This document shows positions 33,978 through 40,346 of a stretch of 64,000 nucleotides of DNA, in pieces (positions within the stretch are counted from its first letter, which is position 1; every line of letters begins with the position of its first letter). The stretch covers positions 62,001 to 126,000 of the forward strand of contig NZ_FNNS01000006.1 in the NCBI RefSeq assembly GCF_900106795.1. The letters run 5' to 3'. The DNA is from Aequorivita viscosa. GTDB lineage: Bacteria; Bacteroidota; Bacteroidia; Flavobacteriales; Flavobacteriaceae. The position numbers were made by a program, and so were the translations under genes. The notes beneath the pieces are model-generated. The model was not told the DNA's origin, searched no databases, and saw nothing but the letters and a program-made list of their open reading frames with translations.

Positions 33978-34486
33978 TTGTAGTAATATTTGGATTGGTT
34001 GTGGATTTCAATGGACAGTGGTTAAACCTTACAGGTTGGAAAAAACCTGTCAGGTTTGGAGGTTGTAGCAATATTTGGATTGGTTGAGGGTTTCAATGGA
34101 CACTGACTGATTAAACCTTACAGGTCGAAAAAACCTGTCAGGTTTGGGGGTTGTAGCAATATTTGGATTGGTTGTGGATATTGATGGACAGTGGTTAAAC
34201 CTTACAGGTTGGAAAAACCTGTCAGGTTTGGAGATTGTAGTAATATTTGGTTTGGTTGTGGGTTTCAATGGACACTGATTAAACCTTACAGGTTGGAAAA
34301 ACCTGTCAGGTTTGGGGGTTGTAGCAATATTTGGATTGGTTGTGGATATTGATGGACAGTGGTTAAACCTTACAGGTTGGAAAAACCTGTCAGGTTTGGA
34401 GATTGTAGTAATATTTGGTTTGGTTGTGGGTTTCAATGGACACTGATTAAACCTTACAGGTTGGAAAAACCTGTCAGGTTTGGAGG
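33978..34486 (+). repeat. Array of six ~84-bp units, each with a REP-type palindrome
   Basis: Units begin at 33978, 34063, 34151, 34235, 34319 and 34403 (spacing 85, 88, 84, 84, 84), each starting TTGTAGyAATATTTGG. Each contains an imperfect 14-bp inverted repeat with one internal mismatch and a short GGAAA-type loop: 34024-34057, 34113-34145, 34197-34229, 34281-34313, 34365-34397 and 34449-34481. Units 3+4 and 5+6 are near-identical 168-bp pairs, so the array grew by duplication of pairs. It ends inside the 3' end of the transposase gene. Degenerate copies resume beyond that gene at 35090. Confidence 0.9.
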
Positions 34487-35028
34487 TCATCAAATTCAGA
34501 AAGATTGTGAGGTTTTTTTCGATGCATGAATATAAAATTCTCTTTATTACCAAACAGCTCTATGACTTCGGTTCTTTTCAAATTAGTCGGCTTATTTGAT
34601 AACATAGAAGCATAGGAACTATATGGATATAGTTCAAAATCATTAACAATTCCGTGGTTTTCAGGATTTAGATGAATATAGATTATAAGTTGTCTTAAAT
34701 AATCCTCCTCTATAATTCTTTTCCGCTTGAATGGACGTTGAAACAAACTACCGATTCGATTGTGTCTTTTATTGAAAGCTTTGGAATAACTATTAAAAAG
34801 GTTTGAAAAAGATTGAGAAGGATTTTTTTTACACTCATCATTTATTCTCACAAGAAAATGAAAGTGGTTGCCGAGAAGGCAATAGGAATAGATATCTGCA
34901 ACCGGCAGGATATGTTTTTTGACTAGTTTTAAAAAATGTAAATAATTGTCATTGTCCAGGAAAATAGATTGTTGATTATTACCCCTATTAAAAATGTGAT
35001 AAAAATATGTCTCTTCCAGGAAATCCAT
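34474..35028 (-). CDS. REP-associated tyrosine transposase (RAYT, Y1/HUH type)
   Basis: A 184-residue single-strand DNA transposase-like protein when started at the ATG at 35028; an earlier ATG at 35061 adds 11 residues not typical of the family. The IS200-like fold begins Y-F-Y-H-I-F-N-R-G-N-N. The HUH metal motif is in G-N-H-F-H-F-L-V (about 53-60), the tyrosine region ends with Y-I-H-L-N-P, and S-S-Y-A-S follows. The domain is complete. Its TGA stop lies within the last palindrome of the adjoining array. RAYTs are thought to mobilise REP elements without being self-mobile insertion sequences; here palindromes flank both ends. Confidence 0.88.
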   Translation of the reverse strand: MDFLEETYFYHIFNRGNNQQSIFLDNDNYLHFLKLVKKHILPVADIYSYCLLGNHFHFLVRINDECKKNPSQSFSNLFNSYSKAFNKRHNRIGSLFQRPFKRKRIIEEDYLRQLIIYIHLNPENHGIVNDFELYPYSSYASMLSNKPTNLKRTEVIELFGNKENFIFMHRKKPHNLSEFDDLQT

Positions 35029-35089
35029 AAAAATAAGAGTTTGAAAAAATAAAGATAACACTCTTTCGATAAACTCATCAGATTTAGGA

Positions 35090-38734: not shown

Positions 38735-38760
38735 AAAACCGTCCATCGCGGCGGTTTTTT
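38735..38760. terminator. Hairpin upstream of the Ntn-hydrolase module
   Basis: A run of A residues and ACCG pairs with CGGT and T residues around a small G/C loop, ending in six T. It is nearly the same sequence as the hairpin at 40322-40346 beyond the module. It may terminate transcription reaching it from nrdA or mark an insertion edge. Confidence 0.55.
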
Positions 38761-38809: not shown

Positions 38810-40096
38810 ATGACAGCAGTAATTGGAATTTTAAATAAGAATGCCGTTGCTATCGCAGCAGATTCGGCCGTTACAGTGTCGGGATCAAATGGTAGCAAAA
38901 TATATAATACGGCCAATAAAATATTTACCTTGTCCAAGTTTCACCCCGTCTCGATAACCATCTACAATTCAGCTAACTTCATTACGACTCCGTGGGAAAT
39001 TATTATAAAAATATATCGAAAAGAACTTGGAGAACGGTCGTTTCCGAGATTAAGAGACTACTCCGACGATTTTTTCAGGTTTTTAAAAACAAATAACTTT
39101 TTTTCTTCTGAGGATCTTATAGACCACTTTTTTAAATCATTAATATTTTATTCCATTGAAGATTTTGTTCGTAAATCGTATGAAAGAGCAATGATGGAAG
39201 AAAATGACTTAATATTATTGTCAAAGGAAAAAAGATTACAAGTATTTAGAAAACATTTAATAAATCTCATTGATTTAGAAATTGAAAAAACCCAAAACGT
39301 AGAGCAGTTAGAAGATTTTAAGACATTAACAAAAAAGGAGTTCAATAGTTTAACCAAAAAAGATATTAACGATATTTTTGAACAAAACTATAAAGAATTG
39401 GCGAACAAAGATTTGAGAGATAAATATTCAACTTTTCTTTATAATTACATTAAAAGTAAATTATTTTACGGTCCGTGGAGCGGCCTAATCTTTGCCGGTT
39501 ATGGTGATGATGAGATATATCCCACCACAATAAGTACAAAAATTGCTAGTGTCTTCGATAAGAAAATAAGGTTTTATACTGATGTTGTGGAAACTATTAA
39601 TAATAATAACACAGGGTCTATAATGCCTTTTGCTCAAAGGGACGTAATTGATACGCTAATCACTGGAATTAGCCCAGATATCAATGCAACTTTATTTGGC
39701 ACATTTAACAATATATTAAATGGATATAATGAATATTTAATTAAATTAACAACCAAAGATAATCCTGAACTCGCAGCAAAACTTTCTAGATTAGATATAG
39801 ATAAGGTTTGTGAAGAGTTTGTTGAAGAGATTGATAAGATAAAGAAAATTAAACACATTGAACCTACAGTCAATACCGTTTCTATTCTTTCTAAAGAGGA
39901 TTTAGCGGAAATGGCAGAAAGTTTAATATATTTGACCTATCTTAAAAGAAGAATTAGTTCTCACGAAGAATCCGTTGGAGGTCCGGTTGATGTTGCCATA
40001 ATATCTAAAGGAGATGGTTTTATTTGGATAAAAAGAAAACATTATTTCGAAGAAAAATACAATCCTCAGTTTAACTATAAATACTTTAACTCTTAA
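38810..40096 (+). CDS. Proteasome-like Ntn-hydrolase of uncharacterised type
   Basis: A 428-residue protein. After Met removal, Thr would be residue 1 (M-T-A-V-I-G-I-L), Asp is at 17 (A-A-D-S) and Lys at 36 (N-T-A-N-K-I); in HslV and proteasome beta subunits the set is Thr1, Asp17, Lys33. Later pieces also fit the fold: L-I-F-A-G-Y-G-D-D-E-I-Y-P (about 225-240), A-Q-R-D-V-I-D-T-L and the closing S-V-G-G-P-V-D-V-A-I-I (about 390-402). A mostly helical insertion (about 65-220) makes it far longer than the roughly 175-240 residues of HslV or Anbu. There is no signal peptide. A 60-codon gene follows after 13 bp. Substrate and role are unknown. Confidence 0.7.
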   Translation: MTAVIGILNKNAVAIAADSAVTVSGSNGSKIYNTANKIFTLSKFHPVSITIYNSANFITTPWEIIIKIYRKELGERSFPRLRDYSDDFFRFLKTNNFFSSEDLIDHFFKSLIFYSIEDFVRKSYERAMMEENDLILLSKEKRLQVFRKHLINLIDLEIEKTQNVEQLEDFKTLTKKEFNSLTKKDINDIFEQNYKELANKDLRDKYSTFLYNYIKSKLFYGPWSGLIFAGYGDDEIYPTTISTKIASVFDKKIRFYTDVVETINNNNTGSIMPFAQRDVIDTLITGISPDINATLFGTFNNILNGYNEYLIKLTTKDNPELAAKLSRLDIDKVCEEFVEEIDKIKKIKHIEPTVNTVSILSKEDLAEMAESLIYLTYLKRRISSHEESVGGPVDVAIISKGDGFIWIKRKHYFEEKYNPQFNYKYFNS

Positions 40097-40109
40097 TTAA
40101 TTTCAAAAA

Positions 40110-40292
40110 ATGCATCATTCCAAAACTGATTATAAAAATCATTGTCTGAGCCTAGCTTTTATAAAGGAATTTTCTAAAAACCGGGAAGATTTCAATAAAA
40201 AAAAGATTACTAGCCAAACTAAGTCTACAGAAATTTCAAAAATCATATCTGAAAGACTTTTGGAAAATATTCAAAAGCAACTTACATTGTAA
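40110..40292 (+). CDS. Small protein paired with the Ntn-hydrolase gene
   Basis: A 60-residue, lysine-rich, hydrophilic protein with helical character (I-S-K-I-I-S-E-R-L-L-E-N-I-Q-K-Q-L near the end). It has no signal peptide or recognised family. It begins 13 bp after the Ntn-hydrolase stop and ends 29 bp before a terminator-like hairpin, so the two genes form one unit. It could be a partner, adaptor or regulator; this is inferred only from position. Confidence 0.55.
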   Translation: MHHSKTDYKNHCLSLAFIKEFSKNREDFNKKKITSQTKSTEISKIISERLLENIQKQLTL

Positions 40293-40321: not shown

Positions 40322-40346
40322 AAACCGTCCATTGTGGCGGTTTTTT
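40322..40346 (+). terminator. Terminator of the Ntn-hydrolase module
   Basis: AAACCG pairs with CGGTTT (40322-40327 with 40338-40343) around a loop, with a T run to 40346. Apart from two or three positions the sequence equals the hairpin at 38735-38760 upstream of the module. Confidence 0.65.

Follow-up and report, generated by a model that had tools for sequence, protein, structure and literature searches.

The closest described systems to the locus studied here are homologs of the proteasome. In 2021, Fuchs, Alva and Lupas described 22 new families of such homologs (PMC8665760), among them the Proteasome homologs with Multiple Insertions (PMI), of which PMI-3 and PMI-4 are named at both insertion sites. 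In Table 1 of that survey PMI-4 is marked for Bacteroidetes and phages and PMI-3 for neither, and by the same table PMI-4 is the largest of the new families, with 501 sequences at 90% identity (PMC8665760). The authors argue that insertions at both sites could block the assembly of a ring or double ring; genomic context, according to the available text of the survey, gave no functional hint (PMC8665760). A second described family, PHROG 5990, is annotated as of unknown function, and its annotation holds nothing on any partner.

Here we analyzed a two-gene locus of Aequorivita viscosa (Flavobacteriaceae) that encodes a proteasome-like Ntn-hydrolase and a small partner. Both genes lie in a stretch of 64,000 nucleotides (contig NZ_FNNS01000006.1, positions 62,001 to 126,000), hereafter the window, in whose own numbering the features are listed (Table 1). 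What appears new is the conserved partner and the mobile, partly defense-linked context of a known but unexplained proteasome homolog. A first-pass annotation of the window, made from its letters and open reading frames (ORFs), had suggested a possibly undescribed, self-assembling or regulatory peptidase family. For the enzyme the label undescribed did not stand, since it matches PHROG 5990 and, as far as the available survey text describes that family, almost certainly belongs to PMI-4; no description of the conserved small partner was met with in the literature listed.

Table 1 Coordinates of the enzyme–partner pair and its features in the window
Feature	Coordinates	Strand	Basis
Terminator-like hairpin upstream of the pair	38738..38760	+	-9.0 kcal/mol; 2 of 200 shuffles as good
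Proteasome-like Ntn-hydrolase, 428 aa	38810..40096	+	ORF; PHROG 5990 match; AlphaFold2-predicted fold; almost certainly PMI-4 type
Thr2, predicted nucleophile once Met is removed	38813..38815	+	Thr (101) or Ser (2) among 103 relatives
Asp18 (Asp17 of the mature enzyme)	38861..38863	+	103 of 103 relatives
Lys37 (mature Lys36; position of proteasome Lys33)	38918..38920	+	103 of 103 relatives
First helical insertion, residues ~101-215, after H1/H2	39110..39454	+	DSSP of the AlphaFold2 model
Second helical insertion, residues ~289-358, between H3 and H4	39674..39883	+	DSSP of the AlphaFold2 model
C-terminal signature E-S/T-V-G-G-P-x-D-V ... G-D-G-F-x-W ... R-K-x-Y-F	39968..40048	+	Residues 387-413, near-invariant columns
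Small partner, 60 aa, variable N-terminal part and helix-like C-terminal segment	40110..40292	+	Position, coding pattern, alignment
Terminator-like hairpin closing the pair	40324..40346	+	-8.7 kcal/mol; 3 of 200 shuffles as good

Results

The enzyme matches the PHROG 5990 profile over nearly its full length (residues 1–422 against profile positions 1–424 of 427, E = 2.1e-107), and the partner is what sets it apart from that family as recorded. Its assignment to PMI-4 follows from architecture and distribution, not from a sequence comparison with the representative HDY66466.1: insertions occupy both sites, and of PMI-3 and PMI-4 only the latter carries the Bacteroidetes and phage marks in the survey's table. 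The record titles of the relatives found here cover phages, Bacteroidetes, PVC, cyanobacteria and Euryarchaeota, as that table marks PMI-4. Common to the enzyme and to PMI-4 as portrayed in the available text are the proteasome beta fold, the Thr1/Asp17/Lys33 set, insertions after H1/H2 and between H3 and H4, the lack of a reported propeptide, and an occurrence across many phyla of bacteria, in Euryarchaeota and in phages; the difference is that this text mentions no small partner and no informative gene context. Among the matches listed in a literature search that had bioRxiv outside its scope, only the 2021 survey names the family, and no report on its function or on a partner was found.

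The catalytic set proposed in the first-pass annotation (Thr1, Asp17 and Lys36 of the mature enzyme) is retained across 103 enzymes with <70% mutual identity, drawn from 165 full-length enzymes at 170 loci (counts in Table 1). The patterns that retrieved most of these relatives lie in the C-terminal motif, away from Thr2, Asp18 and Lys37. Both strands named earlier were located as well, LIFAGY at residues 226–231 and SVGGPVDV at residues 388–395. A search for an in-frame start upstream of the Met of the window's enzyme gene found none, which argues against a propeptide, so that removal of the Met, by established Ntn-hydrolase chemistry, would expose Thr1. We do not extend this reading to enzymes with an upstream start, because in-frame upstream start codons occur in 20 of the 103 enzymes (at a distance of at least 20 codons in 10) and PGAP places the start of two E. 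coli enzyme proteins at an upstream codon. A separate observation concerns enzymes of gut-type Bacteroidales (L051, L059, L064, L074, L082, L088 and L089), which have an altered C-terminal motif, K-H/R-K-x-W, and mostly stand without a visible partner; at L064 the enzyme is followed by a 59-residue ORF that looks unrelated.

According to an AlphaFold2 model (mean pLDDT 94.3, input alignment of 94 sequences), the predicted fold of the enzyme is proteasome-like, in keeping with the Ntn-hydrolase fold read from the sequence earlier. VIA-align superimposed the model on yeast beta5 with Z 16.8 (187 residues, 4.1 Å), the alignment beginning at residue 2 of the model and residue 1 of the subunit, and on Anbu with Z 16.4; the best 50 rows of structural matches are 20S subunits and one Anbu. 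In a Foldseek search of the PDB the top rows were again 20S subunits and Anbu, none with E below 0.001, which we attribute to the insertions. Where the first-pass annotation had seen a single insertion of ~150 residues, the model has two, both helical (Table 1). The enzyme resembles the 20S proteasome beta subunit and Anbu, and probably HslV, in its predicted core fold (Z ~16 to beta subunits and Anbu) and catalytic triad, but differs in its two large helical insertions, its small dedicated partner and its distribution on mobile elements. It further differs from these in that no unfoldase family recurs among the best 25 of the 159 families of its neighbors.

A profile search of the PDB found Thermoplasma proteasome beta at E 0.002 over 18 positions of the C-terminal motif, and Pfam PF00227 (Proteasome) matched residues 2–39 at 11.5 bits, far below its gathering score of 22.4. 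NCBIfam gave nothing credible for the enzyme, and PADLOC-DB 2.0.0 no credible known defense system for the pair, the sole match being REase_II (9.4e-4, 17 bits). We put the weak Pfam, NCBIfam and PADLOC matches (glycosyltransferase, BH0509, REase_II), and likewise most sequence-only PDB matches of the enzyme (BceA, cullin), down to noise from the helical regions.

The two ORFs are situated where the first-pass annotation had placed them, on the same strand and with 13 nt between them, and their pairing is conserved among homologs, in line with that annotation. We compared 99 diverse loci whose downstream sequence reached 300 nt or more; in 89 of them, an ORF of 40–100 codons begins within −40 to +30 nt of the stop codon of the enzyme gene, against 14.6 expected from dinucleotide shuffles; at the same loci, such a follower was found for 167 of 721 other ORFs of at least 200 codons. 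The 89 take in the doubtful L088 and also L151, where the wrong ORF was chosen and the real partner has 37 codons. Among the ten misses, L009 and L165 carry shorter versions of the partner, L048 has it at +57, and at L149 it overlaps the end of the enzyme gene. No obvious partner stands behind the enzyme at L051, L059, L074, L082, L089 and L121. Held-out diverse viral loci yielded a partner in 12 of 14 cases (3.2 expected); in the other two the partner has 37 codons and starts at +11 and +12. Starting from the partner side, the alignment of one partner subfamily retrieved 15 relatives from the viral collection, every one directly behind an enzyme gene (cut by the contig start in one case and broken in two). 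Differences at codon positions 1, 2 and 3 numbered 4503, 3736 and 6661 across 260 overlapping pairs, those with a partner identity of at least 35% being kept. Positional conservation and this codon-position pattern argue that the 60-codon ORF is a real gene, and a chance ORF was ruled out by the two positional tests, the coding pattern and the search from the partner side. None of the three outcomes that had been named as speaking against the first-pass annotation (another fold, loss of Thr, Asp or Lys, an unconserved small gene) was found.

The partner changes faster than the enzyme. Identity was lower in the partner in 29 of 33 pairs (median 0.57 vs. 0.79), which are incompletely independent, as they include three near-duplicate pairs and one, L059–L064, that compares doubtful ORFs. 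Partners have 34–86 residues (median 62) and are rich in Lys, Glu, Ser and Asn; only the wrongly chosen ORF of L151 has a membrane-spanning look. For clustering, the ORFs of L059, L082 and L088 were dropped and L149 was added, giving a set of 95 that still holds the wrong L151 ORF and the L048 ORF at +57 nt. Single linkage joined 58 of the 95 in one cluster, possibly by chaining. The subfamilies follow a common plan, a short aromatic or hydrophobic motif and in most a helix-like end, and profile comparison does not provably give them a common origin: among ten comparisons of five hand-made groups, A–E reached 77% probability, D–E 21% and the rest <6%. Against the PDB the partner gave chance matches or none.

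Enzyme and partner form a tight closed unit. The partner starts at a median of +5 nt from the enzyme stop and overlaps it in 37 of 94 cases when the longest ORF is taken, and the two genes are very likely carried on one message. A terminator-like hairpin follows within 110 nt of the partner at 24 of 34 viral and 23 of 59 other loci, compared with one viral and one other locus in a control of one mononucleotide shuffle each. The window's pair has a hairpin on either side. The two hairpins are near-identical, and their pattern, with up to two mismatches, occurs only these two times in the 3.54 Mb genome, as though one of them were a duplicated cassette end or a relic of a lost second copy. Flanking direct repeats exceeded the control maximum at 8 of 89 loci, each with its own sequence. 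Those of L067 were considered as cassette ends and rejected, as they are interspersed repeats in both orientations.

The pair is mobile cargo of phages, satellites, E. coli prophages and plasmids. Its distribution is sporadic: a homolog was found in one of 98 related genomes, and 10 of 395 Bacteroidota genomes match at E 0.001, six of them below 1e-90 with the own genome included. Broader scans gave 508 enzyme relatives in 84,980 species genomes and 151 in viral contigs, 80 being kept from each. The enzyme occurs in 13 phage records, of which 7 are streptococcal satellites. Seven of the 13 were viewed: the pair sits at the record end in Javan103 and Javan468, is not terminal in Javan421, where the 55-codon partner is unannotated, and the record of Streptococcus phage Javan85 stops at the enzyme and contains no partner. 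Ten plasmid records match (three viewed). With one enterobacterial query, 22 of 5426 E. coli genomes matched; the five viewed are all prophages, with the pair antisense to the surrounding phage genes in three and behind an HTH regulator in two.

In the window the pair is flanked by ribonucleotide-reductase-like genes and by a CNNM gene with an ogt-like gene, and the enzyme also lies upstream of CNNM and ogt-like genes in four other flavobacterial loci. A scan of neighbors at 37 chromosomal loci (140 of 148 ORFs, eight long ones being left out for size) returned mostly ordinary or housekeeping genes among the best 25 of 159, 266 and 78 neighbor families; these best-25 lists also hold a few type I restriction, Septu, Fic and HEPN genes and two integrases. 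Two loci stand beside known defense genes. In the window's own genus, L350 (G025 contig C19, 1-9236) consists of nine ORFs arrayed on one strand, with hairpins in the spacers between them; a GmrSD/HEC-05 gene (2.6e-193) and a mad2/N6-methylase-like gene (1.6e-16) lie just upstream of the pair. Around the pair of Belliella L016 we found an Argonaute-associated nuclease (4e-83), a candidate PDC-S31 (3.5e-70) and SoFic (9e-39). Eight neighbors at L019 and L044 gave no match to PADLOC. By eye, attC-like sites flank the pair at L350, L016 and L019; a crude automatic scan returned 4 of 93 loci vs. 0.6 expected. Two of these four, L016 and L044, look right, while of the seven L350 spacers the scan caught only one. 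Because this automatic test is weak, we keep the reading of the pair spacers at these loci as candidate integron attC sites as a lead. Integron-borne defense cassettes are a known theme, and the mobile, partly defense-linked context is the best clue to the function of the pair.

Discussion

Being mobile cargo with occasional antiviral neighbors suggests an antiviral or element-against-element role. We therefore propose, with a probability of about one half, that the pair is a mobile two-gene module of inter-element conflict, most likely of anti-phage (superinfection) defense. Loss of the start Met would uncover Thr1 of the enzyme, which would form the active center together with Asp17 and the equivalent of Lys33, and the two helical insertions would probably replace self-compartmentalization in a ring with restricted access or a docking surface. 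The partner, presumably small and soluble, carrying a short motif and in many cases a helix at its C-terminus, may bind the enzyme and set its activity or target. Infection would then shift this setting, upon which the enzyme would cleave a phage or host protein. In its most specific form, a proteolytic immune module in which a ring-free threonine enzyme has a tiny, rapidly evolving partner as its infection sensor, the proposal is doubtful.

Several observations speak against this proposal. Neighbors are mostly ordinary at the 37 chromosomal loci (best 25 per list), as they are in the window, and PADLOC gave no credible match to the pair itself and none to the eight neighbors at L019 and L044. 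At six loci the enzyme stands with no visible partner, which speaks against its strict dependence on one. A model of a read-through fusion of enzyme and partner yields no confident docking, with moderate confidence in the partner helix (pLDDT ~75–80) and low confidence in the remaining partner (~40–60). The partner subfamilies lack a provable common origin, and the record ends of Javan85 and Javan421 also count on this side. With the partner and the mobile, partly defense-adjacent distribution, PMI-4 gains a specific hypothesis that can be put to experiment, and structural and biochemical work can take the partner as a natural starting point. Should the pair act in immunity, proteolysis of the proteasome type would be a further weapon in the contests among phages, satellites and hosts; to our knowledge, this would be the first function of a proteasome homolog in the conflict between phages and bacteria.

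Toxin–antitoxin style addiction, in which the free enzyme is harmful, the partner acts as its labile inhibitor and the module stabilizes its carrier with no dedicated anti-phage role, is an unlikely account. Type II toxin–antitoxin pairs combine an effector with a small adjacent protein and are mobile, and the present pair resembles them in having a small, mostly soluble-looking, fast-changing gene directly behind the enzyme gene on mobile elements. Moreover, the enzyme ORF is broken at seven loci, and six of these retain an intact partner ORF, which hints that the partner is tolerated by itself, although five of the seven are metagenome-assembled genomes in which the breaks may be sequencing errors. 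The pair differs from type II modules in the type of enzyme, in its enzyme-first gene order, which is less usual among toxin–antitoxin modules, and in the loci at which an intact enzyme persists without a visible partner.

A role of the partner as substrate, tag or targeting peptide, Pup- or adaptor-like in function, with the enzyme degrading or ligating the proteins so marked, seems quite unlikely to us. Pup, a short disordered protein, is encoded next to the mycobacterial proteasome genes, and the partner is similarly short, partly disordered-looking and encoded beside a proteasome-like gene. However, its C-terminus is variable, none of the 95 partners ends in the GGE or GGQ of the Pup type, and no ligase gene was noticed by the pair in the annotated regions viewed. 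Connectase, a proteasome homolog that is a specific ligase, offers a precedent for a non-degradative specific enzyme; in the survey text available it has its insertion between S3 and S4, whereas those of the present enzyme lie elsewhere (PMC8665760).

Just as improbable, in our estimate, is cargo that serves the phage or carrier by counter-defense, lysogenic-conversion fitness or protein quality control, and not by immunity. The position of the pair inside temperate-phage genomes and between chromosomal housekeeping genes would fit such a role, as would the CNNM and ogt-like genes that recur downstream of the enzyme both in the window and at four further loci of flavobacteria. Yet the pair is also found in satellites and plasmids and, at two loci, beside known defense genes, and only about 1% of related genomes carry it, a rarity that housekeeping genes do not show. 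That the small ORF is an untranslated or regulatory sequence is extremely improbable: it is sometimes unannotated and is hypervariable between subfamilies, but its third codon positions vary most and its second least, its start position and frame openness are far above those of shuffles, and partner alignments show protein-level motifs.

Some features near the pair are recorded here in their own right, apart from the reading as a module of inter-element conflict. An ORF at 34050-34553 of the window consists of repeats of ~28 residues (84 nt) with the recurring sequence KPDRFFQPVRFN; it adjoins an ORF at 34474-35061 that looks like a REP-associated transposase. In an E. coli prophage (L171, 6032-7400), two tRNA genes and a DNA methyltransferase gene lie beside the pair. 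On a plasmid of Rhizobium gallicum (L010, 7671-11230), genes annotated as multiubiquitin, ThiF, DUF6527 and Clp protease are found ~1.4 kb from the enzyme.
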